Assembly: GCA_903873395.1 (NCBI GenBank)
Contig: CAIQOJ010000109.1
Span: 1-64,000, forward strand
Length of the DNA: 64,000 bases
Direction: 5' to 3'
DNA from: an uncultured Acidimicrobiaceae bacterium
Lineage (GTDB): Bacteria > Actinomycetota > Acidimicrobiia > Acidimicrobiales > RAAP-2
Shown: piece after piece, positions 12,090 to 27,935 of the stretch
Numbering within the stretch: the stretch's first letter is position 1
Layout of the letters: the number at the start of each line of letters is the position of its first letter
Notes under the pieces: generated by a model
Seen by the model: only the letters and a program-made list of their open reading frames with translations
Told to the model about the DNA's origin: nothing
The model's database searches: none
Made by a program: the position numbers and the translations under genes

Positions 12090-12452
12090 TGCCCCTGCTG
12101 CCCCTTTCGATCGCCCGCTCATTACTGCGCATGGCGTTCGCTCATCAACCACCTTGTGCACCGTTGTGCAGTGGTCGGCTCGTGAGCCGACCCAAACAGC
12201 GTTCCGCGTGCAGCCCTGCCTGTCAAGCCGTCTGGCACCCACGATCCAACCACTCTGCTCCCGGGACGACACCGTCCCCGACCGCCAGGCATGTCACACC
12301 CGGTGCCTAGCCTGGGAACCTTGTCCGATGCCCGACCGCAGCCCCGGTCGGTCCTACGTCGTGGTGCTGGCGGCATCAGATGTCATCGGACGGCGCACGC
12401 ATCGGGTCCTGGTGGCGGGCAGCCGACCGGACCCCTGAAGGAAGGCGGATCG
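12090..12452. other. Divergent intergenic region with spaced direct repeat
   Basis: No gene is recognised in these 363 bases between the secreted Fn3 protein and the clamp-like gene. TTGTGCA occurs twice (12154-12160 and 12164-12170), one helical turn apart, which could be a regulator half-site pair. Nothing else stands out. Confidence 0.4.
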
Positions 12453-13622
12453 ATGGAGAACACCAGAATCAGCATCACCCAAGGCGAGTGGCAGCGGGTC
12501 TACCAGGACATCGCCCCATTCACCCAGGACGACGAACAGCGGGCCTCGGGCCATGTCCTCTTCACTGCCAAGGGCGGCGCCCGATCCTGGGTCGCCACCG
12601 ACGGGAAGTGTCTGGCCGTCCTCGAATGCGACGGTGCTGCCGGCCCGGACGTCGAACTCCTCATCAGCCCCCGCCTGGTCAGTGCGGCGTGCGCCCTGAG
12701 CCAGGCGGCCGACGAGTCGGTCGATCTCGTGGTCGATGCCGACCGTCCCGGGGTGGTGTCGGCCAGTGCGGGTTGTGGCTCGGTCACCCTGCCGGTCTTC
12801 GACGGCGACGTGCCCGCCTGGCACGACGGCCTGGCCATCGCCCGAGCCCGGGCTTCCAGCACTGCGGTGGTCGCCCGAGACGCCATCTGGAGCGTGATGG
12901 CCGAAGCTCGACGGGCCCCTCAAGGGATCGATCTCGAGGCCGTCAACCCACCGTTCTGGCTGGCCAGCGAGCCCGGTGTGGTGACGGCCACCGTGGAGTG
13001 GCCCCGGATTGGGCCGTCGCTTTTCGTGGTTCCCGTGGCTGGCGGCTCATCGGCCAGGGTATGCGTCAACCCACGACGCCTGGTCAATCTGGTCTCTTCA
13101 GCCGCTCCAGGTGACATCACTCTGGCCCTGCCTGATGCCCCAGACGGTCCGGTCCTGGTATCCGACGACACCGGCTGGAGTGGGTTCTTGATGGCGGTCG
13201 ACCGGGTCGAAGAAGAGCTGCGGCCCGCCCTCGAAGCCACCTTGACCGATGCCTTTGGCGATATCCCCTTGGTCCGTGACGAAGACGGCGACTACGTCCT
13301 TCCTTTCGGCACCGTGCCTGTCTACGCACGTCTGGTGGGTGGTGACTCACACCGCGTGCAGGTGTTCAGCGTGGCCGTCACCGACATCCGCACCTCCCGC
13401 AAGCTCCTGGGCGAACTCAATGATCAGAACTGCCGGATCCCGTTCGCCAAGGCCCTGTGGTTCGCCAGCCAGGTCCTCTTCGAGACCGAGCATGAGATCG
13501 ACCAACTTGATCCCGAATCTCTGATTGAGTCCTGCAGTCGTGTGGCCGAGTTGGCCTCACGTCTTGGTCCGCTCCTGGCCATGGCCTTTGGTGGCCAGGC
13601 CACCGCTGGCGATACGCCCTGA
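12453..13622 (+). CDS. Sliding-clamp-like protein fused to a TY-Chap (YbjN-like) domain
   Basis: A 389-residue protein in three parts. Residues 33-125 resemble the middle domain of the DNA polymerase III beta clamp, including ATDGKCLAV at 48-56 (compare ATDGHRLA in DnaN) and the strand pattern ending TLPVFDGDVPAW. Residues 135-250 resemble the third clamp domain, with CVNPRRLVNLV and a final GFLMAVD in place of the YLVMPVR end. Residues 252-381 match the T3SS/YbjN chaperone-like (TY-Chap) fold seen in many actinobacterial proteins. The first clamp domain is missing, so it cannot be the replicative clamp. The start at 12453 follows GAAGGAAGGCG. Function unknown; the domain calls are from pattern recognition. 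Confidence 0.6.
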   Translation: MENTRISITQGEWQRVYQDIAPFTQDDEQRASGHVLFTAKGGARSWVATDGKCLAVLECDGAAGPDVELLISPRLVSAACALSQAADESVDLVVDADRPGVVSASAGCGSVTLPVFDGDVPAWHDGLAIARARASSTAVVARDAIWSVMAEARRAPQGIDLEAVNPPFWLASEPGVVTATVEWPRIGPSLFVVPVAGGSSARVCVNPRRLVNLVSSAAPGDITLALPDAPDGPVLVSDDTGWSGFLMAVDRVEEELRPALEATLTDAFGDIPLVRDEDGDYVLPFGTVPVYARLVGGDSHRVQVFSVAVTDIRTSRKLLGELNDQNCRIPFAKALWFASQVLFETEHEIDQLDPESLIESCSRVAELASRLGPLLAMAFGGQATAGDTP

Positions 13623-13713
13623 CTGCGTCAGGCCTTGTTGCGGCACGGCCTGTGCGGCACGGCCTGTACGGCATGGCGACCGCCAAGACACCGTCTCGAG
13701 GAACGATCCTCGG

Positions 13714-13719
13714 TACGAT
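13714..13719 (+). promoter_or_regulatory. Candidate -10 element for the sugar-modification operon
   Basis: TACGAT fits the actinobacterial TANNNT -10 pattern and would give a 5' leader of about 150 bases before the ATG at 13876, containing the 15-bp tandem repeats. No -35 sequence is clear. Confidence 0.3.
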
Positions 13720-13801
13720 TGGCACTTGATCCGCGGCGCACGTCCTCGGGTGAGGGCAGCCGACGGGCAGGCCAGGGAGGCAGCAGACCCACATGGACAG
13801 G

Positions 13802-13855
13802 CCCACCGTGCACCAGCCCACCGTGCACCAGCCCACCGTGCACCAGCCCACCGCC
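13802..13855. repeat. 15-bp tandem repeat, about 3.6 copies
   Basis: CCCACCGTGCACCAG is repeated perfectly at 13802, 13817 and 13832 and then partially. It ends about 20 bases before the NeuD-like start codon. In the frame of that gene it would encode repeated HRAPA, so it is either in the leader or in an unrecognised N-terminal extension. Confidence 0.92.
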
Positions 13856-13875
13856 ATCTCACGACACCCGTCGCC

Positions 13876-14529
13876 ATGAGCGCCTTGGAAGCCAGCACCG
13901 CTACACCCCACGGCACGGTCGTCATCCTCGGAGCAGGCCGCCAGGCCCTCGAGACCTGTGGCTACCTGCAGAGCCAAGGCATAACAGTCGCCGCTCTGAT
14001 CGAAGAGCACGCGCCGGACTATCCCCGAGACCCCGATCTGTTTGCCGCACCGATCTTCACCATGGCCACCCTGCCTGACGTCATGGGATCCCTGCCTGTG
14101 GTCACCGCCGTCGGTGACTCCGACCTCAGGCGAGCCCTGGTGGACCGGTTCCCTGGGGTCGCCTTCACCAGCGTGGTGGCTCCTGGGGCATGGATCTCTC
14201 CGACAGCCACACTGGGCGCCGACGTGACCGTGGGACCCCTGGCCATCGTGAACGCCCGAGCCCTGATCGGCGATCACGTCCTCGTGAACTCCGGGGCCAT
14301 CGTCAGCCACAACGTCCGACTCGATGACTACGCAACCGTCGGGCCGGGAGTCCGCATCGGTGGCGACACTGGCATCGGGGCGTCGACCACCATCGGTATC
14401 GGGGCCACGATCATCGACCACTTGCGCATCGGATCGCACGTCGTCGTGGCCGCCGGAGCGGTCGTCGTCAGCGACGTGGCTGACGGCACCACGGTGATGG
14501 GCGTGCCAGCCCGACCGGTCGACCGATGA
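13876..14529 (+). CDS. NeuD/PglD-like sugar O/N-acyltransferase
   Basis: A 217-residue left-handed beta-helix acyltransferase. The N-terminal half is the Rossmann-like PglD_N domain (VVILGAGRQALETCGY at 14-29) that binds the UDP-sugar, and residues about 110-212 are hexapeptide repeats (ATLGADVTVGPLA, GVRIGGDTGIGAS) that bind acetyl-CoA, ending in VMGVPARPV. It acylates an amino sugar or sialic-acid-like sugar. The stop overlaps the next start as ATGA (14526-14529), so it is coupled to the DegT aminotransferase that would make its amino-sugar substrate. The frame is open upstream, but conservation starts here. Confidence 0.85.
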   Translation: MSALEASTATPHGTVVILGAGRQALETCGYLQSQGITVAALIEEHAPDYPRDPDLFAAPIFTMATLPDVMGSLPVVTAVGDSDLRRALVDRFPGVAFTSVVAPGAWISPTATLGADVTVGPLAIVNARALIGDHVLVNSGAIVSHNVRLDDYATVGPGVRIGGDTGIGASTTIGIGATIIDHLRIGSHVVVAAGAVVVSDVADGTTVMGVPARPVDR

Positions 14530-15659
14530 GCCCCGTGACGAAAGCGACTCCGTTCCTCGTCCCGACCTTTCCGTCCCCCGAAGCGTTGGCCGCTTCGTTC
14601 GTGGAAATCACGGCCTCGGGGATCTTCTCCAACAACGGACCCGCCTCTCGGGAGTTCCGAGCTGGATTAGCTGAGTGGTTGGACTGCCCGGCTGACCAGA
14701 TCGCCCTGGTCTCGAGCGGAACCACCGGTCTCCATCTGGCCATCCAAGCCCTCGTCGATCCAGCCCGCACCGATGTTCTGGTGGCCTCGTTCACCTTCGC
14801 TGCCGGTCCCCTGGTCATCACGGCCGCCGGCCTGCGGCCGATCTTCCTAGACATCGAACCATCCACGTGGCAGCCCAACTTCGACCAAGCCGAGGCCTGG
14901 TGTTCCTCGCATGGGTCGTCGCTGGCCGGCATCCTCTTGACCAGCACCTTCGGTGTCGCCGTTCCTGACATCGCTCGATGGGAAGCACTGGCCGCCGAGC
15001 ACGGTGTTCCCCTGGTTGTGGATTCGGCCGCCGGCTTCGGCTCGACCCACGAGGACGGCGAACCGGTCGGACTCCGAGGCGATGCCGAGGTGTTCTCGTT
15101 CCACGCCACCAAGACGTTGGCCATCGGCGAAGGCGGAGCGGTCCGTTGCAGGAATGCCTCGGTGGCGGCGACCATCGAACGGCTGGCCAACTTCGGGTTC
15201 GACGACCAGCGGCGCAGCATCGCCTTAGGCACCAACGGCAAGCTCGACGAACTGTCGTCGAAGATCGGGTCGCTTCAGCTGGCCAATCTTGAGGCACGCT
15301 TGGCGGCACGCCAAGAAATCTTGGCTCACTACCGGGAAGGCTTGTCCAGCCTGGGCGTCACGTTCCAGCCCGGGGCCGAGCGCTCGGCGCTCCCATTCGT
15401 CTCCGCCGCCCTTCCCGACCCTGACCAGCGAGATGCGGTCATGGTCGCCCTCGCCGCCGGAGCCATCGAGTCACGCAGCTATTACAACCCTCCCGTCCAC
15501 CTCCACCCGGTCTTCTCCGAAGCCACCTCGCTTCCCATGGCCAGCACGGAGGATCTGTCGTCCCGGATCATCTCCTTGCCCATGAACGACGCGTTGGCCC
15601 CATGCGAGATCGCCCGGATCTGTGCCATCGTCGGCGACGTGATCGGACCATGCACATGA
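14526..15659 (+). CDS. DegT/DnrJ/EryC1/StrS family sugar aminotransferase
   Basis: A 377-residue PLP-dependent aminotransferase that converts a nucleotide-linked keto sugar to the amino sugar. Asp166 (VVDSAAG) and the PLP Lys196 (FSFHATKTLAIGEGG) are in the expected places, as is the SSGTTGLH phosphate-binding segment at 63-70. Length is standard. It is the middle gene of a three-gene set with ATGA overlaps on both sides, between a NeuD-like acyltransferase and a glycosyltransferase, as in surface-glycan amino-sugar pathways. No dehydratase or sugar-nucleotide transferase is in the window, so the sugar cannot be named. Confidence 0.9.
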   Translation: MSPVTKATPFLVPTFPSPEALAASFVEITASGIFSNNGPASREFRAGLAEWLDCPADQIALVSSGTTGLHLAIQALVDPARTDVLVASFTFAAGPLVITAAGLRPIFLDIEPSTWQPNFDQAEAWCSSHGSSLAGILLTSTFGVAVPDIARWEALAAEHGVPLVVDSAAGFGSTHEDGEPVGLRGDAEVFSFHATKTLAIGEGGAVRCRNASVAATIERLANFGFDDQRRSIALGTNGKLDELSSKIGSLQLANLEARLAARQEILAHYREGLSSLGVTFQPGAERSALPFVSAALPDPDQRDAVMVALAAGAIESRSYYNPPVHLHPVFSEATSLPMASTEDLSSRIISLPMNDALAPCEIARICAIVGDVIGPCT

Positions 15660-16510
15660 CCGACCCGGACGGCCCCTTCGTCTTCATCCTCAGCTGGGAA
15701 CGGCCTGTCTATCTGTGGGCCAGCCTCGACTCGATCTTCCGTCGGACCCAGACGCCCTGCCGGTTCGTCCTGGTCGACAACGGCTCGCTCGACCCACTGG
15801 TCCGGGAGGTGATCGCCGGTTTCCAGCGCCGAGGCATGTTCCATGCCGTCCACCTCATGGAGACCAACGAGCCCGGGAATCTCGCTGCCGTGCTCGACGA
15901 CTATCTCCCGCAGGTCGGTTCCCACTTCGTCTACATGGAGTCGGACATCACCATCGAAACTCCGGTCGAGGGCTGCTGGCTCGCCACATTGCTCGAGTTG
16001 GCCGAGGTCGACCCGCTGCGAGCGATGATCGGCTCCTATTGCGATCCCCGGGACTTCCCCGACATCGAAGGGACACGCCATCTCTTCCCCGACATGGATG
16101 ACGAGGCCTACCTCCGGCTCGTCAAGGCCTCGAGTCCCGAGCGGACACTGTCCGTGGTTCCGCCCGCGGAACCCCTGATCTCACCGTTCAACCCACCGGG
16201 CCGCCTGCTGCTCTTACGTACCGAGGCCATCGCCCCCATCGGCATGCGTGCCGATGCCGAGCTCCACCAGACACTCGTGGCGCAAGGCTGGACCACCGGA
16301 ATCGCCACCGCCGTCCGACATCGCCACCTCTCCCTGCTGCATGTCTTCGACGAGCCCGCCTATGACACGGCCGGCCGGGCGGTCTTCTTCGAGCAGTTCA
16401 GCACCGCCGGTGCCGAACGAGCAGCACCATCCACGACGCCCACCGCCCCCGAGGAGGGCGCTGCGCATCCCTCACCAACTCGTCGCTCACTCTTCCGACG
16501 TGGCTCGTGA
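15656..16510 (+). CDS. Glycosyltransferase family 2-like protein
   Basis: A 284-residue GT-A fold glycosyltransferase candidate. It has the nucleotide-sugar entry FILSWERPVYLWASLDS at 10-26, VLVDNGSLDP, and YMESDI at 93-98 in the place of the DxD metal motif (as ESD). Downstream segments vary from typical GT2 members, so the assignment is by fold. The ATG at 15656 forms an ATGA overlap with the aminotransferase stop; the ATG at 15650 is an alternative. It probably transfers the sugar made by its two upstream partners. Its 3' end overlaps the convergent TraG-like gene by 24 bases. Confidence 0.7.
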   Translation: MTDPDGPFVFILSWERPVYLWASLDSIFRRTQTPCRFVLVDNGSLDPLVREVIAGFQRRGMFHAVHLMETNEPGNLAAVLDDYLPQVGSHFVYMESDITIETPVEGCWLATLLELAEVDPLRAMIGSYCDPRDFPDIEGTRHLFPDMDDEAYLRLVKASSPERTLSVVPPAEPLISPFNPPGRLLLLRTEAIAPIGMRADAELHQTLVAQGWTTGIATAVRHRHLSLLHVFDEPAYDTAGRAVFFEQFSTAGAERAAPSTTPTAPEEGAAHPSPTRRSLFRRGS

Positions 16511-18133
16511 ACGGAGCCAGGGCTCGTCGAACCACGTCCGCAGCCTGATCCGGGCCGGAGCCAGGTCGCGGTAGACGAGGACTCCTGTGCCCGACGGCAG
16601 TCGTCGCAAGGCATCTGGGGGAGCAAGTCGTCTCACCGAGGGAGAGCGGGTTGTGCTCGAGCCATGGGGACCGCCGGCGGTCACCGCGGACTGGTGGCGC
16701 TCCTCGTCTCCGATGAGATGACTGGCGTAGTCCAACGTGCCCGGGTCAGAGATACCGGACAAGAACAGTTTGGCTCGGTGATTGTTGACCACCGTCGTCG
16801 CTCGAGGACCGAAGCGGGCGGTCATCTGAGCCAGATCGTGCCAGATGGTCACCAGCTGGATGCCATGGCCCGCCGCCGTCGAGGCCAGGGCGTCGAGATC
16901 AGGCACCGGGGCGATATTGGCGGCCTCGTCCAAAACGACCAGCAGCGGTGGATCGAGTGGCCTGCCGGTGCGGGCCACCTGGTCATAGGCGTGATCGAGC
17001 ACGCTGCGCAGCACCCCAACGAAGAGCGGCGTGAGGCGACGCTGGTCGTGGGCAGGTGCCGTGAGAAAGAGGGTGCCGGATCCGTCGAGCAGAGCGGCCG
17101 GATCGACCACCGGGAGCGGCACGGCGTGCGGCGCCGCCGCACCGAACGGCTCCAGGAGTGTCTCCAAGGTGGTCACGATCGAACTCCGTTGTCGCTCCTC
17201 TTTGGCAAAAGCGGAGCGAGCAGCATCCACAGCTGGGGCGACCCCGGCCCACGTCAGCAGATCGAGCACCTCGTTCTCCTCCCCGGTCTCCACCCAGCGG
17301 ACGACGTCGGTCATGTCACGTCGGCCCAAAGCCGCAGCAAAGAGCAGCGGGGCAAGCAGTCGCGAGGCGGTGGCGAACCAGAAGTCTCCGTCGGCCATGC
17401 CGCCCACCGATCCCCGCCCGACCTCAGTCAGGGTGGCGGCAGAGCGTTTGGCTCCGGGCCAGGTGGTGCTGGCGGGAAGTGGTGACCACGTCACATCACC
17501 GCGGCCGGTGATGCCCGATGGATCGAAGCAGGACACCAGGCCCCCCTGTGAGCGGTGATGGATGGTGTGGTCGAGCAGGTCGGTCTTGATGCTGGCCGCC
17601 AGAACCGGTCCCTCCCATCCCAAGATGGCCGGCACCGCCAGCCCGGTGGTCTTGCCCGACTGTGTGGGCCCGAACACGATCAGCGAACTGGCCTCCTCGC
17701 CGGCCAGCACGTGGCCGCCGCCCCAGAACGGAAGCCGGCCGATGCCACCACGGTGGCTCGTTTCGGGATGCCCGAGCACCAAGCGACCCGGTGGTGGCGG
17801 CCGGTGACCCGGCACCACGAGGGCAGCCACGTCCGCCCGACGGGCCCAGCGAGCGGTCTCGCCCGCCCGGCCCGACCCGCGACCCATCCACCGGGGGTGG
17901 GCAGAAGCACCGATGGCTCCAACAGTGGCCCGGGGCCCTCGCCATCCCCGCTCACGCACAGGGGACTGGCGCATTCGGGTCTGGCGCATTCGGGTCTGGC
18001 GCATGGACAACGGACGCGACGACGGTTTCGCCTCGGGACCTGGCCCTCGTTCTCCCGTTCCTTCGTTTCGGCCCCCGGCTAACGCCGCCACGACTGCAGC
18101 CGCAGCGACCAACTCGAAGACGACGGCGTTCAC
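16487..18133 (-). CDS. VirD4/TraG-like coupling ATPase
   Basis: A 548-residue T4SS coupling-protein-like ATPase. Walker A is GPTQSGKTTG (155-164), Walker B is LLVVLDEAANI (397-407), and the family segment WHDLAQMTARFG follows. Only one N-terminal hydrophobic segment (about 4-19) is present, less than in classical VirD4. A stretch with MRQTR repeats precedes the ATPase domain. The GTG start at 18133 overlaps the VirB4-like stop as GTGA. It would recruit substrate (DNA or protein) to the secretion channel. It is the last gene of a five-gene operon lacking a relaxase, so the substrate is not known. Confidence 0.85.
   Translation of the reverse strand: MNAVVFELVAAAAVVAALAGGRNEGTGERGPGPEAKPSSRPLSMRQTRMRQTRMRQSPVRERGWRGPRATVGAIGASAHPRWMGRGSGRAGETARWARRADVAALVVPGHRPPPPGRLVLGHPETSHRGGIGRLPFWGGGHVLAGEEASSLIVFGPTQSGKTTGLAVPAILGWEGPVLAASIKTDLLDHTIHHRSQGGLVSCFDPSGITGRGDVTWSPLPASTTWPGAKRSAATLTEVGRGSVGGMADGDFWFATASRLLAPLLFAAALGRRDMTDVVRWVETGEENEVLDLLTWAGVAPAVDAARSAFAKEERQRSSIVTTLETLLEPFGAAAPHAVPLPVVDPAALLDGSGTLFLTAPAHDQRRLTPLFVGVLRSVLDHAYDQVARTGRPLDPPLLVVLDEAANIAPVPDLDALASTAAGHGIQLVTIWHDLAQMTARFGPRATTVVNNHRAKLFLSGISDPGTLDYASHLIGDEERHQSAVTAGGPHGSSTTRSPSVRRLAPPDALRRLPSGTGVLVYRDLAPARIRLRTWFDEPWLRSRATSEE
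17966..18004. repeat. 15-bp tandem repeat inside the TraG-like gene
   Basis: CTGGCGCATTCGGGT occurs at 17966 and 17981, then a partial third copy. It encodes MRQTR-type repeats in the linker between the membrane segment and the ATPase domain. Confidence 0.9.
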
Positions 18134-19482
18134 CCGACATCCCCCGGCAGAGGACCTGTCGGCGACATGGCTCCGTCGGTGTCCACCAGCCACCGCTCGT
18201 GGCTGGAGAGGTGATGTTGGACCAGGAACGACCGTCGGCCGACCTTCCAAAGTGCGGTGCCCCGATGCAACTGGGTGACCAGCGCCGCCTCGGTCGAGGT
18301 GAGACCGAGGAGGTCTGCACTGCGGGCAACCTCGCCGTGAGGCTGGGCATAGATCACGCGTGTCTCCGAGTCCGACAAGAGACCCTGGGCCAGACCCACC
18401 TGCTCCGAACCTGCAGCACCGACCGATGCCAGGTCGCTCAGGCGATGAAGTACAGCCATGTTGGCCACGCCGAAGGCCCGAGACAGCTTCCAGGACGACT
18501 GCAACCACCGAGCCACCCCCAGGTCGCCCAGGATGGCCCATGCTTCATCGACGACCAGCAGAATGCGGTTGCGCCGTGCGGCCGTCACTGCGCTCTGGAG
18601 CCAGGCCGCGGCACAGGCCATGAGGATGCCCAGCGCTGGCGAGTGGTAGACGGCGGAGAGGTCCAGCACGACCAGAGGGCCAGCCAGATCGATGCCTGGT
18701 GTCGTCGGGCCATCGAACATCCCCCGCAGGTCGCCATGAACCAGACGGCGCAGTTCCAGGGCCACGTCCCTTCCGTCCTCGACCAAGGCTGTTCGGGTCG
18801 TGCGCAAGGTGGCCGCCGCTTCGGCCGTCGGATCGAGGAGCGCATCGACCACCTGAGGGAGTGTCGGCGCTGGCCGGCAGGTCGACTGGCGTGTAGCCCG
18901 GGGTGTCGGGTGGGGCACCGAGCCACGTTGCTCACCGCCGCCTGGCGGCCCCACGGCAGCCAGAGCAGCATCGACCGCTGCCCGCTCCCGAGGCAGCAGA
19001 TCGCGGCCCAGGCAGGACACGGCCAACGACACGCAGAGGGAGGTGCGACGCAGGGCCGCTCCGTCGTCATCCCCGGAGGCCGGCCCGGTATCGAGGGGAT
19101 TGAGCCGAATAGGTCCTCCCGGTCGAAGTGTCAGCGGGGTCGACCCCCAGGCTGCCGCCAGTGGTCCGTATTCGCCTTTGGGATCGATCACCCAGGCGCT
19201 GCGTCCGAAGACAGCTTGGCGCCACAGATAGGACTTGACGAAGGCGCTCTTGCCCCGACCGATCTGACCCAGGACGATCATGTTCGGGTTGGTGATGACA
19301 CCGTCGCCATAGAGAGCGAAGGGGTCATAGGCGAACGAGCCACCAAGAACGTCGCGACCGACGACGACACCGGCATGGCCCAGGCCAGCCTCGGACACCA
19401 TCGGGTAGGCGGCGCAGAGATGACGGGTGGTGGCCACGTGCGCTGGAACCACGGGACCGAGCCTGGGAGTCGGGCCTCTCAT
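18130..19482 (-). CDS. VirB4/TraE-like ATPase (ATPase domain only)
   Basis: A 450-residue HerA/VirB4-type ATPase. Walker A is GQIGRGKS (72-79), Walker B is ILLVVDEAW (307-315), and IDPKGEY follows the first strand as in VirB4. Conjugation VirB4 proteins are usually 600-800 residues with a large N-terminal non-ATPase domain; here that part is absent and is probably supplied by the SCO6880-like gene immediately upstream. The ATG at 19482 is preceded by GAGGAG, ten bases after the upstream stop. It would power pilus assembly or substrate transfer at the inner face of the membrane. Confidence 0.85.
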   Translation of the reverse strand: MRGPTPRLGPVVPAHVATTRHLCAAYPMVSEAGLGHAGVVVGRDVLGGSFAYDPFALYGDGVITNPNMIVLGQIGRGKSAFVKSYLWRQAVFGRSAWVIDPKGEYGPLAAAWGSTPLTLRPGGPIRLNPLDTGPASGDDDGAALRRTSLCVSLAVSCLGRDLLPRERAAVDAALAAVGPPGGGEQRGSVPHPTPRATRQSTCRPAPTLPQVVDALLDPTAEAAATLRTTRTALVEDGRDVALELRRLVHGDLRGMFDGPTTPGIDLAGPLVVLDLSAVYHSPALGILMACAAAWLQSAVTAARRNRILLVVDEAWAILGDLGVARWLQSSWKLSRAFGVANMAVLHRLSDLASVGAAGSEQVGLAQGLLSDSETRVIYAQPHGEVARSADLLGLTSTEAALVTQLHRGTALWKVGRRSFLVQHHLSSHERWLVDTDGAMSPTGPLPGDVG

Positions 19483-19492
19483 CTCCGGCTCC

Positions 19493-20965
19493 TCATGTCA
19501 GGCCTCGTCCCAGAGGAAGAAGGCACAGCAGTGCCACGTCTTGTTGGCCCAAGAGTCGACGGACTTCGAGTCGAGCATGACCAGCCGCCTGCTCGAGAGC
19601 GGCACAAGCACCTTCGAGTTCACCAGCTGATGCTTCCGTCACTCCGACGAACCCCGAGTAGCGGAGCTGCGCGTGGCCGTCGGCCAACTCGACGTCCCGA
19701 GCGTCCACGCTCTGGCGCTCACGTTGGTGACGTGCGGTGGCCAGGAAACCTCCGCGCCGTCTGAGCTCGGCGTCGGCCAGTCCTGCCGTGCGGGACTGGG
19801 CCACCTGGCGCGCTGCTCGGGCGGGATCGATGGGCTCCAGGACCATCGATAGCGTCCGATTCAGTGGTGCGAACAGAAGGGGGCCGAGGAACTCTGGCGT
19901 GACGTCGACCCGGGGCCACTCAGACACCCAATAGATGGCATGCCAGGACCGGTCCGTACGGACCGCGTCCCACGTGGCCTCGATAGCCACGGGCCAAGGT
20001 CGCGAGACATCAAGGACGTGATCCTCACGACCCGGGTCGACCCTAGGCCTGCTCCAAGTGACGTCATCGAGACCTGTAGCCAAGGTCTGAGCCAACGCCC
20101 CTCGGCCCAGCACGCCTTCCACCTCCAGGTCAGCTGACGCCAGGGCTCGCGCCACCGAGGCCACCTCACCAGCCAGGACAGCTCCTGCGCCATCGAGGCC
20201 ACCTCCGTGGCGCCGGACGGCGCGGGCCGATCGGCCTCGATGGATCGTCACGGCGATGAGGACACGGTGACGCCGCGTCACCGGGGCCACCTCGTCAAGG
20301 AGCGCTGCATACGAGCGGGCAGCCATGTCCTGCCCATCGAGCACGCCATGATCGGCCAGATGCCCGCGGACACCACGACCATCGTCAGCACGGCAGATCT
20401 CGAGCCACTGCAGGCGGTGGACCGCTGCACCTTCTCGGGCCAACGAAGCCAGGACTCGGGCCCAGGCTCCGACCCGAGCCTCCTGGTCGTCTGGACCCAG
20501 CAAGGCGAAACTTCCTCCGGCCACCTGCAGCACGGCGGTCAGCGTCCTGGCCGGTCCGTCGATGACTGCTCCCATCCCCTCGACGCCAGCGTCACTGGCA
20601 ACGTCGACGACCTCGAGGCCTGCGAAGACCGAGACCGGTGTCCGCCCAGGTCGCAGATCAGGATCCAACTGCAGTCGGCGGCCCATGACACCCGCCCAGG
20701 CCCATCGAGTCACGATGGGGATCCACTGGTCGCCGGTTCGTCCTGACAGCGGCCAGAAGGCAGTGGCCGCCCCAACTCCGACAACGGCAACGGCGATGGC
20801 GACGCCACCCACGTTGGGCCGACCTCGGACAGCCAGCACGGCCAGAACCAGTGCCGTCGCCACTGATGCCAACTGCCCAGCCCGCCATCCAGCCACCACC
20901 CCTCGACGTTCGAGCGGCGGGAAGCGATAGCGGGTGCGCCCCTCGCCGGTCTCGCTGGTACTCAC
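19493..20965 (-). CDS. SCO6880-family conjugation protein
   Basis: A 490-residue protein of the SCO6880 family found in actinobacterial conjugative and integrative elements. Two adjacent transmembrane helices (about 26-46 and 52-72) are followed by PLSGRTGDQWIPIV, then a large soluble domain (80-490). The two helices recall VirB3/PrgI and the soluble part recalls the N-terminal domain of VirB4. The start is a GTG overlapping the VirB6-like stop as GTGA. It presumably sits in the membrane next to the ATPase encoded by the next gene. Family assignment is good; exact function is inferred. Confidence 0.82.
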   Translation of the reverse strand: MSTSETGEGRTRYRFPPLERRGVVAGWRAGQLASVATALVLAVLAVRGRPNVGGVAIAVAVVGVGAATAFWPLSGRTGDQWIPIVTRWAWAGVMGRRLQLDPDLRPGRTPVSVFAGLEVVDVASDAGVEGMGAVIDGPARTLTAVLQVAGGSFALLGPDDQEARVGAWARVLASLAREGAAVHRLQWLEICRADDGRGVRGHLADHGVLDGQDMAARSYAALLDEVAPVTRRHRVLIAVTIHRGRSARAVRRHGGGLDGAGAVLAGEVASVARALASADLEVEGVLGRGALAQTLATGLDDVTWSRPRVDPGREDHVLDVSRPWPVAIEATWDAVRTDRSWHAIYWVSEWPRVDVTPEFLGPLLFAPLNRTLSMVLEPIDPARAARQVAQSRTAGLADAELRRRGGFLATARHQRERQSVDARDVELADGHAQLRYSGFVGVTEASAGELEGACAALEQAAGHARLEVRRLLGQQDVALLCLLPLGRGLT

Positions 20966-22680
20966 GATCCGTCCCCTTCTTCGTCGAAGAGGTGATGGCC
21001 GAGGAGCACCGGACCCATGGCGTCTCGGCCTAGATGATGACGTCCACTCGTGCCACTGGCCTGGGCCAGAGGACCGACATAGGCGACACCATCAGGTAGG
21101 CGAGCACCGGGTCGCATCGGCGGAGGTGCTGGCGAAGGGGGCGACGAGCGTGCTGACTGGGCCTCGGTTTCCTCACCGGTCCACGTGCTGGCCAGTCGGG
21201 CCGGGAGCTCGTGGTCGTAGAGGCCTGCCTGATAGTCGTCCATCGAGAAGTTGTTCCAGGCTTCGGTGGCCGCGGCATTGGGCTCCATCATGGGGATGCT
21301 CGAACCGGGGACCCATCCGGACCACGATCCGTCATCAGCACCGCTGCCACCATCACCCGTGCTGCGGATGCCGGAGCGCCCGTTGGATCCACCCGAGCCC
21401 TTGGTGGGCAAACCATCGGCCATGGATCCAGCCATAGGTCCAGACATTGATCCAGACATTGATCCAGACATGGATCCAGCCAAACCACCGGGTCGAGAGC
21501 CGGAGCCAACCTTCGAGCCAACTACTGGCCCGATCACGCCGATAGGTCCGGCCACCGCTGCAGCAGCAGCTCCGGCCGCATTGGCCCGAAGGGCCGCCGA
21601 GGCAAGGCCCTTGGCCGGTGCCGCCATGCGGTGGCGAGCTCGATCAGCCAGGCCCTCCAAGTGTCCGACGGCACCGGCCTCGATGAAAGGCAGCAGCCGA
21701 AAGAGCGACCACGGGGCGAATGCAGCCAGCAAGAGCAGTGCGGCCCCAGCCAGTACCGAAGAGAAGCGGCCATCGGCCGCGGGCGAGCCCGCTGGCGTCG
21801 ATCCCGTGCCTCCGGCCAGAGCCCCGGCCGCCAAGGACAGCACGGCCACGATCACCACCTTGCCCAAGACCAGCGCGGCGAGGGTGTCGGCCAGCCGACG
21901 GCTCCAGTGGGCGATGGCCGGCCAGGCCAACGAGGCCAAGGCCAGCGGGAGAAACAGGACGGCCACATAGACAGCAGCCGAGCGGACCAAGAGCTCGACC
22001 CACACCATCAAGGCACCGAACACCAGCACGATGCCGCCCAAGAAGACCACGAAGCTGGGTGCGCTGGGCTGGCCAGCCAGGGCGGAGGTGGGTGCCAGGG
22101 CGGCAGCCACACCGGCGAGAACGTGGCCGGCATCGGTTCCTGACCCCTTGGCGATGGCCGTGCACATCCAATCCGTCACGGCGATTCCGGTGCGCACCAA
22201 CGAGACAGCCACACCGGTGAGGACGAGTGAGAGCGGTACGTGCACCAGGGCCGATCGGATCAACATGCCGGCACTCTGACGATAGACGGCCTGGATGATG
22301 CCAAGGAGAAGAAGAGGGACGACCACCACCCCAGCAAGGGCAGCCATGGTTGCGTAGTGGGCTCCGAACCATGGGGCCCCCAAATCGATCGACGTCGACG
22401 AACCGAGTACACCGCCAAGTTGACCGAGCAACCACGCAGCACCTCCGGTCACCCACTCACCGACGCCGCCCAGGACCGAACTCACCCCCGATCCCACCAG
22501 TGACCCCACGACGTCGGACACCGCACCGCCAGCTGCCGAGGTCACTCCGCCCAGCACGCCGTTCCCCGGCGCAGGGTTCGTGCACACGGTGGCTGGGCCA
22601 GCCGTGCCCAGGGCGGCGGCTGCAGGAGTGCACGCGACGGAGGGGAGGGCAGGGAGGCTGAGGAGGGAGTGTGACGGCAT
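20962..22680 (-). CDS. VirB6/TrbL-like polytopic membrane protein
   Basis: A 572-residue protein with an N-terminal hydrophobic region followed by several transmembrane helices, for example VVVVPLLLLGIIQAVY, LVLTGVAVSLVRTG, FVVFLGGIVLVFGALMVWV and VYVAVLFLPLALASL. A long Gly/Ser/Met-rich cytoplasmic tail contains GSMSGSMSGSMS repeats encoded by 12-bp tandem repeats (21439-21474). Size, order and context fit the VirB6/TrbL channel component of T4SS. The start at 22680 is chosen before MPSHSLLSLPALPS; an in-frame upstream extension is not hydrophobic. Confidence 0.75.
   Translation of the reverse strand: MPSHSLLSLPALPSVACTPAAAALGTAGPATVCTNPAPGNGVLGGVTSAAGGAVSDVVGSLVGSGVSSVLGGVGEWVTGGAAWLLGQLGGVLGSSTSIDLGAPWFGAHYATMAALAGVVVVPLLLLGIIQAVYRQSAGMLIRSALVHVPLSLVLTGVAVSLVRTGIAVTDWMCTAIAKGSGTDAGHVLAGVAAALAPTSALAGQPSAPSFVVFLGGIVLVFGALMVWVELLVRSAAVYVAVLFLPLALASLAWPAIAHWSRRLADTLAALVLGKVVIVAVLSLAAGALAGGTGSTPAGSPAADGRFSSVLAGAALLLLAAFAPWSLFRLLPFIEAGAVGHLEGLADRARHRMAAPAKGLASAALRANAAGAAAAAVAGPIGVIGPVVGSKVGSGSRPGGLAGSMSGSMSGSMSGPMAGSMADGLPTKGSGGSNGRSGIRSTGDGGSGADDGSWSGWVPGSSIPMMEPNAAATEAWNNFSMDDYQAGLYDHELPARLASTWTGEETEAQSARSSPPSPAPPPMRPGARLPDGVAYVGPLAQASGTSGRHHLGRDAMGPVLLGHHLFDEEGDGS
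21439..21474. repeat. 12-bp tandem repeat in the VirB6-like gene
   Basis: TCCAGACATTGA occurs at 21439 and 21451, and once more with one change at 21463. It encodes the SMSG repeats in the tail of the protein on the minus strand. Confidence 0.88.
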
Positions 22681-22764
22681 GGCGGGTCCTGACGATCGGT
22701 GACTTGGGCGACGGTGTCGCATGGCATCGACGACGGCAGTGCTCGAGATGCACGGCGATGTCGA

Positions 22765-22812
22765 CAGCGAGATGGACGACGCAGTCGTCAGCGAGATGGA
22801 CGACGCAGTCGT
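22765..22812. repeat. 24-bp direct repeat, two perfect copies
   Basis: A 24-base unit (22765-22788) is repeated exactly at 22789-22812, between the small membrane protein stop and the VirB6-like start. The second copy reaches into the stop codon of the former gene. Confidence 0.93.
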
Positions 22813-23189
22813 CAGTGCACGCTGCGTCCAGCGGCAAAGAAGAAGTTGACGATGGCCGGCCCTGCCCCGATCAGCAGGGCCGCCAACCCCGAGATCAGCA
22901 CAGCTCGCCGGCCGGTGAAGGACTGCTGGTAGTTACTGCCATGGGAGCCGACCGCCCAGGTGGCTGCACCCACGAGCAAGCCAGCCAGGGCCAGGATCAA
23001 GGCCCAGCCACCTAGACCGTTCATCAAGTGCTGGAGCACCTGGCCACCAGGCAGTGCCGTGGGATCCGGGCTCAGCGTGACGTCCACCAGGTGGAGTGCG
23101 TCGGTAGTCGCCCTGTCACCGACCCATGGCACCGTTGTGGTCGCCGGGCCAGACAGGGACAAGGTGGGGACGGCGTGCAGAAAGGTCAT
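22812..23189 (-). CDS. Small two-helix membrane protein, possible pilin-like T4SS component
   Basis: A 125-residue protein with two hydrophobic helices in its C-terminal half (about 60-80, GGWALILALAGLLVGAATW, and 95-117, VLISGLAALLIGAGPAIVNF) separated by a short polar loop. This layout resembles the VirB2/TrbC pilins and DUF6112-like small proteins of actinobacterial conjugation loci. The N-terminal 50 residues are probably outside the membrane. The ATG at 23189 lies seven bases after TACGGT (23197-23202), so this is the likely leaderless first gene of the secretion operon. Identity as pilin is inferred only from topology and position. Confidence 0.6.
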   Translation of the reverse strand: MTFLHAVPTLSLSGPATTTVPWVGDRATTDALHLVDVTLSPDPTALPGGQVLQHLMNGLGGWALILALAGLLVGAATWAVGSHGSNYQQSFTGRRAVLISGLAALLIGAGPAIVNFFFAAGRSVH

Positions 23190-23308
23190 GCCGGCAACCG
23201 TAGGGAGGGCCACGCCGCATTCCGCTGGCTGCCAGGAGATCGGATGGTTCCTGGCAAGGTTCCAGCCAAGTGGATGCCCCGAGGCCATCAGCCTGCCAGA
23301 CTGGCAGC

Positions 23309-24547
23309 GTGAAGCCGTATGTCATCGGGTACATCGCCATCGGTGTGGTGGCCGTCGTCGCCATCATCGTGGCCGCCCGCCTGGGTCGTCGCGCCGGTCG
23401 GCGCAGCCTCCAGCAGCGGCTGACCGCCCTGTCGAACCGACTCGGAGTCGAAGCACCTGACGAGTCAGGCATGGAGCCCGTGCTCAGCCACCTCGAGAAG
23501 GTGGCTGGCGACGCCGCCGAGGCAGTAACCGAGGCGAGCGCCGATGCCATCCGCTTGCGTCGGGCCCTCGACACGTTGTCCCAGGGGGTCATCGTGTGCG
23601 ACGAGAACGGCGACGTGGCGTTCCGCAATGCCCGAGCCGCTGCGCTCATGAGCAACCGCCATGGTGATGCCCTGGCCGCCCAAGCCGTCACCGAACTGCT
23701 CGAGAACGCCTGGCAGGGGGGCTCGGCCGAGCGCACCGTCGACCTCTACGGTCCGCCTCGCCAGACCTTGGCCGTGCGGACACGGCTCATCGACGACGGA
23801 CGTCGTCCGCTCGGTGTGATCGCCATCATCGACGACGTGTCTGAGCGGCGACGTCTCGAGGAGATCCGTCGCGACTTCGTGGCCAATGTGAGCCACGAAC
23901 TCAAGACGCCGATTGGGGCGCTTGGCCTTCTGGCCGAGACGCTCACCGTGGAACCGGACCCCGAGGTCTCCCATCGTCTGGCGTCACGCATCCATACCGA
24001 GGCCTTCCGGGTCAGTCGCATCATCGATGACCTACTCGACCTGAGCCGCATCGAGTCAGAAGAGGCGCCACCTCGGGAGCCGGTCATGGCCAATCTCATC
24101 TTGGCCGAGGCCGTCGAGCGAGTCCGCAGTGCTGCGGAGCAGCGCAAGGTGCACCTCATCCTCGACGAGCCCGAACCGCCCATCCATCTTGTCGGTGATC
24201 GTCGCCAACTCGTGTCGGCCATCCATGCCTTGCTTGAGAACGCCGTGGCCTTCTCCTACGAGGACGGCACGGTGCGCATCTCGGGTAGCGAGGCCGACGG
24301 CGAGGTGCGTCTCTCCGTGGCTGACACCGGTGTCGGCATTCCCACCCGAGACCTCGAGCGCATCTTCGAACGTTTCTATCGGGTGGATCACGGCCGCAGC
24401 CGCTCCACCGGAGGCACCGGCCTCGGGCTGTCGATCGTGCGCCACGTCGCCTCCAACCACCAGGGCCGAGTCGAGGTCGACTCACGGGAAGGCGAGGGCT
24501 CCACGTTCACTCTCGTCCTGCCCAGTCCGCCGGATTACACCACCTGA
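23309..24547 (+). CDS. senX3: Sensor histidine kinase, SenX3/PhoR type
   Basis: A 412-residue sensor kinase. One N-terminal transmembrane helix (about 5-24) is followed by a coiled region, a PAS-like domain (85-175), HisKA with phospho-acceptor His196 in NVSHELKTP, and a HATPase domain with LLENAVAFSYEDG, DTGVGIP and GGTGLGLSIV. A single helix plus cytoplasmic PAS is the SenX3 layout for phosphate sensing. The GTG at 23309 is used; no upstream residues are conserved. The response regulator follows after 23 bases. phoU, usually close by, is not in the window. Confidence 0.88.
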   Translation: MKPYVIGYIAIGVVAVVAIIVAARLGRRAGRRSLQQRLTALSNRLGVEAPDESGMEPVLSHLEKVAGDAAEAVTEASADAIRLRRALDTLSQGVIVCDENGDVAFRNARAAALMSNRHGDALAAQAVTELLENAWQGGSAERTVDLYGPPRQTLAVRTRLIDDGRRPLGVIAIIDDVSERRRLEEIRRDFVANVSHELKTPIGALGLLAETLTVEPDPEVSHRLASRIHTEAFRVSRIIDDLLDLSRIESEEAPPREPVMANLILAEAVERVRSAAEQRKVHLILDEPEPPIHLVGDRRQLVSAIHALLENAVAFSYEDGTVRISGSEADGEVRLSVADTGVGIPTRDLERIFERFYRVDHGRSRSTGGTGLGLSIVRHVASNHQGRVEVDSREGEGSTFTLVLPSPPDYTT

Positions 24548-24570: not shown

Positions 24571-25383
24571 ATGTCGAAGAAGAACGATGCAGCACCAAGC
24601 ATTCCTGTGCCCACCCAGACCCGGGTGCTCCTCGCCGAGGACGACGAGTCGTTCGTCGATGCCCTCGTTGTGGGTCTCGCTCGTGAGGGTTTTGACGTCA
24701 CGGTCGCCACGGATGGGCCCGAGGCACTTCGCCTCTTCGCCGAAGTGCAGCCCGACCTGATCCTCCTCGACCTGATGCTGCCTCGCCTGTCAGGCATCGA
24801 CGTCTGCCGGTCCATCCGGGCCCATTCGTCGGTGCCCATCATCATGGTGACGGCCAAGGGAACAGAGATCGACACGGTGGTCGGCCTCGAGGTCGGTGCC
24901 GATGACTACGTGACCAAGCCCTACCGGCTCCGCGAACTCGTGGCCCGCATGCGCGCCGTCCTCCGCCGCACCCCTGGGGACGAACCGGAGATCAGCTCCC
25001 AGCCAACCTCCACCGCCAAGAACCAACCGAGTCAGGAGGCCGCGCGCGCCAACGACACAACGGTGCTCGAAGCCGGAGGGATCCGTATCGACGTGGACCG
25101 TCACCTCGTGACCATCCGGGGCGAAGAGGTCCACCTGCGACGCAAGGAGTTCGAGCTCTTGTCGCTCCTCATGGAGAATGCAGGCCGGCTACTCACCCGG
25201 GATGTGCTCATTGATCGAATCTGGGGTTCGGACTACTTCGGCGACACGAAGACTCTTGACGTGCACATCAAACGCCTTCGTACTCACATCGAAGAAGAGC
25301 CGTCCAAGCCGACCCTGATCGTCACCATCCGTGGTGTTGGCTATCGCTTCGATGCACGCCGCACCGCCAGCGACCAGGACTGA
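24571..25383 (+). CDS. regX3: Response regulator, RegX3/PhoP type (OmpR family)
   Basis: A 270-residue regulator. The receiver domain has the acidic pair AEDDE (22-26), phospho-acceptor Asp67 in LLDLMLP, and KPY near 116. A winged-helix OmpR domain follows with RRKEFELLSLLMENAG and VRGVGYRF-like end (IRGVGYRF). A low-complexity linker of about 30 residues, rich in Ser, Thr, Gln and Ala, separates them; this is longer than in RegX3 of mycobacteria (about 227 residues in total). It is co-transcribed with the kinase and preceded by AGGAAG. Probably regulates phosphate genes. Confidence 0.88.
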   Translation: MSKKNDAAPSIPVPTQTRVLLAEDDESFVDALVVGLAREGFDVTVATDGPEALRLFAEVQPDLILLDLMLPRLSGIDVCRSIRAHSSVPIIMVTAKGTEIDTVVGLEVGADDYVTKPYRLRELVARMRAVLRRTPGDEPEISSQPTSTAKNQPSQEAARANDTTVLEAGGIRIDVDRHLVTIRGEEVHLRRKEFELLSLLMENAGRLLTRDVLIDRIWGSDYFGDTKTLDVHIKRLRTHIEEEPSKPTLIVTIRGVGYRFDARRTASDQD

Positions 25384-25519: not shown

Positions 25520-26809
25520 TCAGCCAGGCGCGTCGACGACGGTCCGGCCTCCGAGGTAGGGAGCCAGCACGTCGGGAAGTACCACCGAGCCGTCGTCTTG
25601 TCGACCTGTCTCGACCAGTGCAGCCCAGATCCGGGCCCAAGCCAACGCTGAGCCATTCAACGTGTGCACGAAGACTGGGCCTTTTCCTTCCTCGGGCCGA
25701 TAACGGATGTTGGCTCGTCGAGCCTGATAGTCCGAGCACCACGAGACCGAGGAGACCTCCAGCCACATGTCGACACCGGGCGAATAGACCTCAAGGTCGA
25801 ACGTGCGAGCGGCCGACAGACCGATGTCGCCAGCACACAGATCGAGCACCCGATACTGCAGGCCGAGCGCTTGGAGCAGGTCCTCGGCCCGGGCCACCAT
25901 GGCCTCGTGCTCCGCAGCGGCCTGGTCAGGCGTGCTGTAGGCGAAGAGTTCCACCTTCTCGAACTCGTGGACACGCAACAGGCCCCGCGTGTCCCGGCCG
26001 GCCGAGCCCGCCTCACGTCGGTAGCACGACGTCCCCGCGGTGAGACGAAGTGGGAGGTCGGCCTCGTCGAGGATGTCGCCCCGCCACATCGAGGTGAGCG
26101 GAACCTCTGCGGTGGGGATCGCCCACAGGTCGTCCCGCTCGAGGTGGTAGGCGTCTTCCTCGAACTTGGGCAGGTGCCCGGTGGAGACCATGGTCTCCGT
26201 CAGGACCAGAGTGGGCGGGCGGATCTCTTCATAGGCATCGGCATGACGGTCGAGAGCGAAGGACTCGAGAGCACGAACCAAGCGCGCCCCCATGCCTCGA
26301 TAGAGAGGGAACATCGACCCGGACAGCTTGGCCCCTCGCTCCATGTCCAAGAGGCCGAGAGCGGCTCCCACCTCCCAGTGTGGAACGCGCTGGTGGTCGC
26401 CGTAGACCGGGGCGACCTCGGGCCACGACCGGGCCACGACGTTGTCCTCAGGCCCCGCACCGTCAGGGGCATCCGCGCTGGGAAGGTTGGGCAGGACCAA
26501 GAGGATGGACCGGACCTGGTCTTGGATGTCGGTGGCTGTGACATCGAGTTCGCGTTCGCGTTCCCCGGCATCCCGGCTCTCCTCGGACAGCGCTTCGGCG
26601 CGTGCAGTGTCACCGTCTCGACGGGCCGCACCCACCTCTTTGGAGATGGCCTTGATACGGGCTCGCACCTCGTCTCGTGCGCCTATCGAGGACCGGGCCT
26701 GAGCATCAAGCGCCACGAGGCGGTCGATGTCTGCCGGGTCGATCCCGCGGCGACCCAGGGCCGCCTTGATTGCCTCAGTGTCGTCACGGACCAGTCGGAT
26801 ATCGATCAT
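25520..26809 (-). CDS. serS: Seryl-tRNA synthetase
   Basis: A 429-residue class II synthetase that charges tRNA-Ser. The N-terminal MIDIRLVRDDTEAIKAALGR and a helical tRNA-binding arm (about 30-110) are followed by the catalytic core with motif 2 (SCYRREAGSAGRDTRGLLR) and the motif 3 region near LNGSALAWARIWAALVE, where motif 3 usually ends in R-x-x-x-x-x-x-E; the family position is filled. The start at 26809 fits all homologues. It is read divergently from the ABC exporter with only 28 bases between the start codons; see the shared -10 region. Confidence 0.95.
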   Translation of the reverse strand: MIDIRLVRDDTEAIKAALGRRGIDPADIDRLVALDAQARSSIGARDEVRARIKAISKEVGAARRDGDTARAEALSEESRDAGERERELDVTATDIQDQVRSILLVLPNLPSADAPDGAGPEDNVVARSWPEVAPVYGDHQRVPHWEVGAALGLLDMERGAKLSGSMFPLYRGMGARLVRALESFALDRHADAYEEIRPPTLVLTETMVSTGHLPKFEEDAYHLERDDLWAIPTAEVPLTSMWRGDILDEADLPLRLTAGTSCYRREAGSAGRDTRGLLRVHEFEKVELFAYSTPDQAAAEHEAMVARAEDLLQALGLQYRVLDLCAGDIGLSAARTFDLEVYSPGVDMWLEVSSVSWCSDYQARRANIRYRPEEGKGPVFVHTLNGSALAWARIWAALVETGRQDDGSVVLPDVLAPYLGGRTVVDAPG

Positions 26810-26819
26810 GTCGGGCACA

Positions 26820-26829
26820 ACGGTAGCGT
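26820..26829. promoter_or_regulatory. Overlapping divergent -10 elements
   Basis: ACGGTAGCGT contains TAGCGT on the plus strand (26824-26829, eight bases before the ABC gene ATG at 26838) and TACCGT on the minus strand (26825-26820, ten bases before the serS ATG at 26809). Both fit TANNNT and share the central TA. Each transcript would be leaderless or have a leader of only a few bases. Confidence 0.55.
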
Positions 26830-26837
26830 GGCCATCC

Positions 26838-27935
26838 ATGCATGATGCCCACACTGCAGGTAGCACCACCGGACCTGACTTCGACGCAGGTCCGGCCGTC
26901 GAGTGTCAGGCGGTGACTATCCGCTACGGCACCACCACTGCGGTCGACGGCCTGTCGTTCCAGGCTGCCCGCGGCGAGGTGGTGGCGCTCCTCGGTCCCA
27001 ACGGGGCAGGCAAGACCAGCACGGTCGAGGCCCTCGAGGGCTACCGACCCGTCCAGGGCGGCTCGGTCCGGGTGCTCGGACTCGATCCACGGGCCGACCA
27101 CACGGCCCTGGTGGCCCGCATTGGCGTCATGCTGCAAAAGGGAGGCGTCTACCCCACCCTGACGCCTGTTCAGGTTCTCCATCTCTTCAGCGCCTACTAC
27201 CCCGATCCCGAGGATCCCGATGCCCTGCTCGATGTCGTGGGGCTGACCCGGGCCCGCCGGACGCCCTGGCGTCGACTCTCGGGAGGCGAGCAGCAACGCC
27301 TTGCTCTTGCCCTCGCCCTCGTCGGTCGGCCCGAGGTCCTCTTCCTCGACGAGCCGACAGCCGGTGTGGATCCCGAGGGACGCCTGATCGTCCGCGATCT
27401 CATCACTGCCCAGCGTGATCTCGGTCGGTGCGTCCTGCTCACCACCCACGAACTCGGTGAAGCCGAGCGATTGGCTGACCGAGTGGTGATCATCGACCAC
27501 GGACGCCTGCTGGCCGAAGGGGCGCCCGCCGACCTGGCAGCGGGAAGCGCGGACGGATCGATTCGGTTCACGGCCGAAGCCGGACTCGACATCACGGGCC
27601 TGGTCACCGCCCTCGGCGCAGGCGCACAGGTGACCGAGGAGCGTCCTGGCTCCTACCGTTTGACCCTTCCCACAACGGCGGATACACCAGCCATGGTGGC
27701 CGCACTGGCCGGATGGCTGGCCGCCAACGGTCACGCCCTCGGGGATCTGCGAACCGGGCAGTCGCTCGAAGAGGCCTACCTGGCCATCACGGGAAGCCGA
27801 GGTGAGCCCGAGACCTCCGACGATGGCTCAGGATCTCATGGCCGGCGTGGTCGGGGCCGACGGTCGGGCCGGCGTGGCAGTCGGAACGAGCAACAGACAG
27901 GAAGCGACGGACAGTCACGGAGCGAGGTCGCCTGA
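26838..27935 (+). CDS. ABC transporter ATP-binding protein (DrrA-like)
   Basis: A 365-residue ABC-2 exporter ATPase. Walker A GPNGAGKT (53-60), signature LSGGEQQR, Walker B VLFLDEPTAGVDPEG and H-loop TTHELGEAE are all intact. Beyond the usual C-terminal region there is an Arg/Gly/Ser-rich tail of about 35 residues. The stop overlaps the permease start as TGATG. In mycobacteria the equivalent two genes sit beside ctaA, and the ctaB/ctaA genes lie just downstream here, so a role in heme or oxidase assembly is possible; the substrate is not known. Confidence 0.9.
   Translation: MHDAHTAGSTTGPDFDAGPAVECQAVTIRYGTTTAVDGLSFQAARGEVVALLGPNGAGKTSTVEALEGYRPVQGGSVRVLGLDPRADHTALVARIGVMLQKGGVYPTLTPVQVLHLFSAYYPDPEDPDALLDVVGLTRARRTPWRRLSGGEQQRLALALALVGRPEVLFLDEPTAGVDPEGRLIVRDLITAQRDLGRCVLLTTHELGEAERLADRVVIIDHGRLLAEGAPADLAAGSADGSIRFTAEAGLDITGLVTALGAGAQVTEERPGSYRLTLPTTADTPAMVAALAGWLAANGHALGDLRTGQSLEEAYLAITGSRGEPETSDDGSGSHGRRGRGRRSGRRGSRNEQQTGSDGQSRSEVA

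Follow-up and report, generated by a model that had tools for sequence, protein, structure and literature searches.

Conjugation is usually regarded as a trait of selfish elements. In Streptomyces, the cmdABCDEF genes include VirB4-, SCO6880- and SCO6881-like members, and their loss is reported to disturb sporulation (PMC2782261). The Ced and Ted systems of hyperthermophilic archaea are domesticated DNA-exchange systems, and Ced, which is induced by DNA damage, imports DNA (PMC9905601). A plasmid of Iamia sp. SCSIO 61187 (NZ_CP050950.1) carries a type IV secretion system (T4SS) that starts with a gene of the DUF6112 family. Our literature search on the system described here found nothing relevant in the Acidimicrobiia.

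We analyzed a five-gene operon in a 64,000-nucleotide stretch of DNA (the window) from an uncultured Acidimicrobiaceae bacterium. The genome amounts to 2.8 Mb in 142 contigs and belongs to a family that we label f1; genome-wide statements rest on profile searches of the genomes' contigs. The operon likely supplies the channel and the motor of a core-genome conjugation machine that is inherited vertically; the other half of the machine is an unlinked locus encoding a relaxase and a second ATPase.

A five-gene T4SS operon

Table 1. Features of the operon, its surroundings and the relaxase locus. Positions are those of the window unless a contig of the same genome (G000) is given.
Feature	Position	Strand	Remarks
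DUF6112 protein	22812-23189	minus	125 aa with two TM helices by prediction; opens the operon, in a pilin/VirB2-like position
SCO6881-like polytopic membrane protein	20962-22722	minus	VirB6/TrbL-like putative channel; true start may be 22680
SCO6880 family protein	19493-20965	minus	Two TM helices and a VirB4 N-terminal-like domain
VirB4-type ATPase	18130-19482	minus	Motor half of VirB4; profile match and motifs
VirD4/TraG coupling protein	16487-18133	minus	One N-terminal TM; PF02534 7.7e-27, PF12696 6.8e-21
-10 box TACGGT (TANNNT type)	23197-23202	minus	Ends 7 bases before the ATG of the DUF6112 gene
PhoR-like kinase	23270-24547	plus	Divergent neighbour, outside the machine; synteny marker
OmpR-type regulator	24571-25383	plus	Conserved neighbour, outside the machine
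serS	25520-26869	minus	Conserved neighbour, outside the machine
Sugar operon	12291-16510	plus	Outside the machine; inserted between virD4 and SDR/amidase genes, this genome only
TrwC/MOBF relaxase	G000:C110:13391-14632	plus	PF08751; single copy in its genome, on a separate contig
Second TraG/VirD4-type ATPase	G000:C110 about 14685-16151	minus	Without TM segment; convergent with the relaxase

The five genes put forward in the original prediction are intact by gene calls, profiles and motifs (Table 1). Four-base GTGA overlaps occur at 20962-20965 and 18130-18133 and, as described there, virD4 shares 24 bases (16487-16510) with a convergent glycosyltransferase gene, the last of a sugar operon. 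The leaderless start proposed for the transcript is plausible from the position of the TACGGT box, and a TANNNT box close upstream of the DUF6112 start codon is kept in relatives.

The DUF6112 protein is the candidate VirB2 pilin, based on its predicted helices and a match to Pfam PF19607 (35 bits, cut-off 25). The SCO6881-like protein matches NF047967 at 34.8 bits, below the NCBIfam cut-off of 325. The four top PDB matches to its structural model are TrwI/VirB6-containing chains of R388 (E 0.01, probability 1.00), which is suggestive of a VirB6-type fold and only suggestive because the model is middling (pLDDT 66, about 80 in the core). The SCO6880 protein scores 252 bits against NF042935 (cut-off 60), and its model (pLDDT 84.8) finds R388 TrwM-TrwK/VirB3-VirB4 complexes as its top 14 PDB matches (E 3e-10). 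In an NCBIfam scan the N-terminal half of a CD1110-type VirB4 profile aligns with this protein and the C-terminal half with the product of the fourth gene; we therefore read the two genes as one VirB4 cut in two, a membrane and N-terminal part followed by the motor. Judging from profiles and models, the SCO6880 protein is thus probably the half of the split VirB4 that corresponds to VirB3 and the VirB4 NTD. Both ATPases have intact motifs: Walker A GQIGRGKS and Walker B LLVVDEA in VirB4, GPTQSGKT and LVVLDEA in VirD4. Profile, motif and model tests together place a VirB4 ATPase, a VirB6-like channel and a coupling protein at the operon. No relaxase, integrase, peptidoglycan hydrolase or VirB8/10 was found at this locus, in agreement with the original prediction, and a comparison with PHROGs yielded nothing useful.

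The adjoining sugar operon had been suggested to belong to the same surface apparatus. Clustering with 136 other loci gave no match to any of its four proteins, and relatives carry P450, SDR or amidase genes after VirD4 instead. The sugar operon is therefore ruled out as a partner of the machine, and is a local insertion.

Conservation and inheritance of the operon

We compared the locus in 37 f1 genomes, in 33 of which the junction is readable. The operon adjoins the same PhoR-like kinase in 32 of these, so that the same genes do recur at the same locus in relatives. In the remaining f1 genomes, it has been relocated (G027), the contig stops at the kinase (two genomes), or the region is missing from an incomplete assembly (two genomes). 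The usual order is serS, the regulator and the kinase, then, divergently, DUF6112, SCO6881, SCO6880, VirB4 and VirD4, often followed by a P450 gene and then an amidase gene. No integrase occurs among the annotated neighbours of the operon, and the best plasmid match is 43%. In several loci (L046, L055, L112, L154, L155, L163) several kilobases of unrelated genes lie between SCO6880 and VirB4, with all operon genes kept. In some relatives of the operon (L129, L132, L147, L089, L227) a TrwC gene lies divergently beside the DUF6112 gene; one of these is from a named strain, Acidiferrimicrobium sp. IK.

The operon genes are chromosomal, vertically inherited and under purifying selection. Distances along the trees of the machine genes track those of the vertical markers serS and the kinase (r 0.65-0.88, permutation maxima at most 0.50), the correlation of VirB4 with serS (r 0.67) being weaker than that of the other machine parts. 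For the T4SS genes by themselves r is 0.65-0.86, with permutation maxima of no more than 0.43. The dN/dS values of the T4SS genes in close pairs range from 0.03 to 0.41 and are mostly below 0.25, near the value for serS; the highest (VirB4, pair L095/L150) is suspected to be inflated by truncation at a contig end. In the VirB4 tree, the f1 copies group with copies that are linked to the kinase in five sister families and with a few relatives that have a relaxase next to them; no element-borne copy falls within this clade of 43 tips.

An unlinked relaxase locus

The operon had been predicted to be relaxase-free. This is correct for the locus itself and wrong for the genome, where a search with relaxase profiles uncovered one TrwC relaxase on another contig (Table 1). 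With PF08751, one open frame of 457 aa was found in the window's genome and one of roughly that size in most f1 genomes, whereas a profile search for PF03432 relaxases found none in the window's genome. Most f1 copies are about 390-490 aa long. The f1 relaxases form one clade, separate in the tree from ten sampled relaxases of larger elements. In some sister families a full-length relaxase of about 940-1040 aa occupies the same locus, so a loss of the helicase part in the f1 form is probable. The helicase domain, a hydrolase and a VirB8-like protein are absent from both the operon and the relaxase loci.

The relaxase keeps the residues expected for catalysis. The profile matches the TrwC structure 1omh (E 1e-50), with the HxxSR..DPxLHxH segment aligned. 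His152, His163 and His165 of the HUH triad are kept in 34 of 34 copies, and the catalytic Tyr15 in 33 of 34, the exception being a truncated copy.

The conserved gene order is pafB, pafC, relaxase and the convergent second ATPase. Relaxase and ATPase are convergent in all 35 loci, with ends at most 300 bases apart and often overlapping in 34 (1 kb apart in G020), and pafBC lies just upstream of the relaxase in 33 of the 35. The mycobacterial counterpart of PafBC is reported to be a regulator of the DNA damage response activated by single-stranded DNA (PMC11804915). The relaxase has its own promoter, and its position behind pafBC may be incidental. Several genera have PafB and PafC fused into a single protein of about 650 aa (L180, L182, L184, L186, L187 and others). 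In many genomes, a type IV pilus gene set (PilB/T-type ATPases, PilC-type and prepilin-like proteins) lies a few kilobases upstream of the relaxase locus (L168:1-6205, L170, L177-L181, L186, L187).

Both halves of the proposed machine are widespread. VirB4 was found in 138 of 150 family genomes (90 of the 98 that are at least 90% complete) and a relaxase match in 146 (97 of the 98), counts that take in element copies where present, most genomes showing one relaxase. The second ATPase or its relatives occur in 99 of 248 genomes of the order, mostly as a pair of one high-scoring and one lower-scoring copy, and TrwC is present in all 29 tested members of the order that have the second ATPase. In one genome (G180) relaxase and second ATPase were found and VirD4 was not seen.

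The operon had also been proposed to be either a fixed remnant or a domesticated machine. If the operon were left over by chance from an ordinary integrative conjugative element (ICE) or integrated plasmid, this would account for gene families and an order like those on the Iamia plasmid. Some family members also hold true element copies, with a TrwC of 1,100-1,200 aa near a related T4SS and NlpC/P60 hydrolases. An ICE or its remnant would be one mobile module with an integrase and patchy occurrence; we find instead two unlinked loci, fixed in position in nearly every genome and present at the frequencies given above. The reading frames are intact, dN/dS is far below 1, the annotated neighbours include no integrase, and the VirB4 clade excludes element-borne copies. 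We thus reject a remnant as highly improbable. That the operon is fixed and domesticated stands, given the conserved locus, the vertical signal and the purifying selection. Separate, non-syntenic T4SS copies occur in four genomes (G007:C53, G018:C164, G013:C239, G036:C49), with a TrwC of about 1,200 aa on the same contig in G007, G018 and G013; these are likely true integrative conjugative elements that exist beside the core system.

A chromosome-segregation or differentiation device like that of Streptomyces would share the homology of components and the chromosomal setting free of mobile elements, and cmd mutants have chromosome segregation defects according to the accessible text (PMC2782261). 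The same text reports no relaxase with cmd, whereas a catalytic relaxase is co-conserved here. Additionally, the family has streamlined genomes of 1.3-1.7 Mb and apparently does not comprise obvious sporulating mycelial types. Such a device is a very unlikely explanation.

A phased repeat array at both promoters

We identified a 10-bp-phased array of at least three copies of a unit of about CATGAAANNN (TGAAA type). In most f1 genomes of the window's genus and of several further genera it directly precedes the DUF6112 gene; in ten f1 genomes and in sister families it also stands directly before the relaxase gene. Searching 14 genomes for the pattern returned 18 matches, of which 17 fall at the two machine loci (15 at the T4SS promoter, two at the relaxase) and one elsewhere (G011:C36:3131-3156); the reversed pattern, used as a control, gave two. 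The array score upstream of the relaxase exceeds 12 in 10 genomes, compared with 0.8% of random 510-bp windows, a background sample that itself contains true sites. In examples counted by eye, the array ends in TTGAAA or TTGTAA, 17 bases from the -10 box.

The array is missing from both promoters of the window's genome (window 23190-23290 and L168:9185-9391), in which the genes are intact, and from both loci in a large genus (g10). Co-regulation is therefore not universal. The regulator of the array may have changed or been lost in the window's genome. We sought a motif common to both promoters of this genome and found none, and on inspection by eye we claim no match to a PafBC-type promoter upstream of the T4SS operon. 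No nic site was recognisable, and the array, which stands at promoters, may be only regulatory.

The operon and the relaxase locus belong together: their genes are conserved and co-inherited, the catalytic residues are kept, and the promoter array is common to both. In addition, the window's genome has one VirB4, with no second found by profile search, and one TrwC relaxase, which leaves this T4SS as the one channel found that could serve the relaxase. These observations weigh against a domesticated protein-secretion or surface apparatus for which the relaxase locus is an unrelated fixture. Such an apparatus would fit an operon that itself lacks a DNA-processing gene, as well as the genes inserted between SCO6880 and VirB4 in certain genera. 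VirD4 proteins can also recruit protein substrates. Set against the co-conservation of the relaxase with a second coupling-type ATPase, the array at both loci and the single VirB4, we regard protein secretion as unlikely.

Proposed function

In the core-genome conjugation machine that we favour, the relaxase would nick chromosomal DNA at a putative oriT. The soluble ATPase, VirD4 or both would hand the complex of relaxase and DNA to the SCO6880/VirB4 motor, and the DNA strand would exit by way of the VirB6-like channel with its candidate pilin, DUF6112. The array before the two transcription units is probably bound, in most relatives, by a dedicated regulator, and channel and relaxase would then be produced at the same time. 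We infer the transfer of DNA, its direction and a chromosomal cargo.

ComEC (PF03772) was not found in eight of eight family genomes, near-complete ones included, and was found in 10 of 14 controls; classical transformation uptake is therefore unlikely in these eight. This bears on a further alternative, in which single-stranded DNA is released to the medium rather than passed from cell to cell. A T4SS and relaxase can secrete single-stranded DNA contact-free in the gonococcal genetic island (PMC12857230). However, gonococcal donors profit from natural transformation, and given the ComEC result we view release to the medium as most improbable here.

More tentatively, and with something short of even confidence, the two loci may constitute the first domesticated conjugation system in bacteria, a core-genome machine with which a whole clade of Acidimicrobiales swaps chromosomal DNA from cell to cell instead of relying on ComEC-dependent transformation. 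It would run parallel to the archaeal Ced/Ups, and the neighbouring pafBC could link it to DNA damage. The bacteria may exchange DNA through an apparatus that is no longer part of any mobile element. The full set of machine genes, with the nicking enzyme that is missing from the archaeal systems, is passed on with the chromosome throughout a bacterial family, even in genomes as small as 1.3-1.7 Mb. If the proposal is correct, an abundant uncultured group would have a built-in sex-like process, which would explain gene exchange in bacteria where ComEC was not found, and the DNA cargo of a domesticated T4SS would become a directly testable question.

Comparison with known systems

Like the T4SS of the gonococcal genetic island, the family system is chromosomal and accompanied by a relaxase, and the gonococcal relaxase acts on chromosomal DNA. 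The gonococcal system differs in being a genomic island that has F-like parts and a MOBH relaxase and is not fixed in a family (partly after PMC12857230). The Streptomyces cmdABCDEF genes (SCO4126-4131) and SCO6871-6884 are likewise chromosomal, located off mobile elements, and encode VirB4-, SCO6880- and SCO6881-like proteins, as far as the accessible text goes (PMC2782261). According to the same text, cmd has a role in sporulation and antibiotic production and no reported link to a relaxase (PMC2782261). Its gene set and neighbours differ from those of the family system.

The family system resembles Ced and Ted in that it is domesticated, chromosomal and off mobile elements, with vertically kept VirB4- and VirB6-like parts and a candidate VirB2-like one. 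The archaeal systems have no relaxase, whereas the family system keeps a relaxase and two coupling-type ATPases. By analogy, it may work like a domesticated Ced/Ted-type set without being a member, since the relaxase is kept.

The Iamia plasmid shares the gene order DUF6112, SCO6881-like, SCO6880, VirB4, VirD4 and a TrwC/MobF relaxase. Only the plasmid has ParA, a VanY/SLT cell-wall hydrolase, an extra protein of 287 aa, an HTH gene and a relaxase of 1,124 aa with a helicase. In contrast, the family system is chromosomal and compact, and its relaxase is short and unlinked. The Iamia plasmid system, from the same order of bacteria, is the mobile form of this machine.
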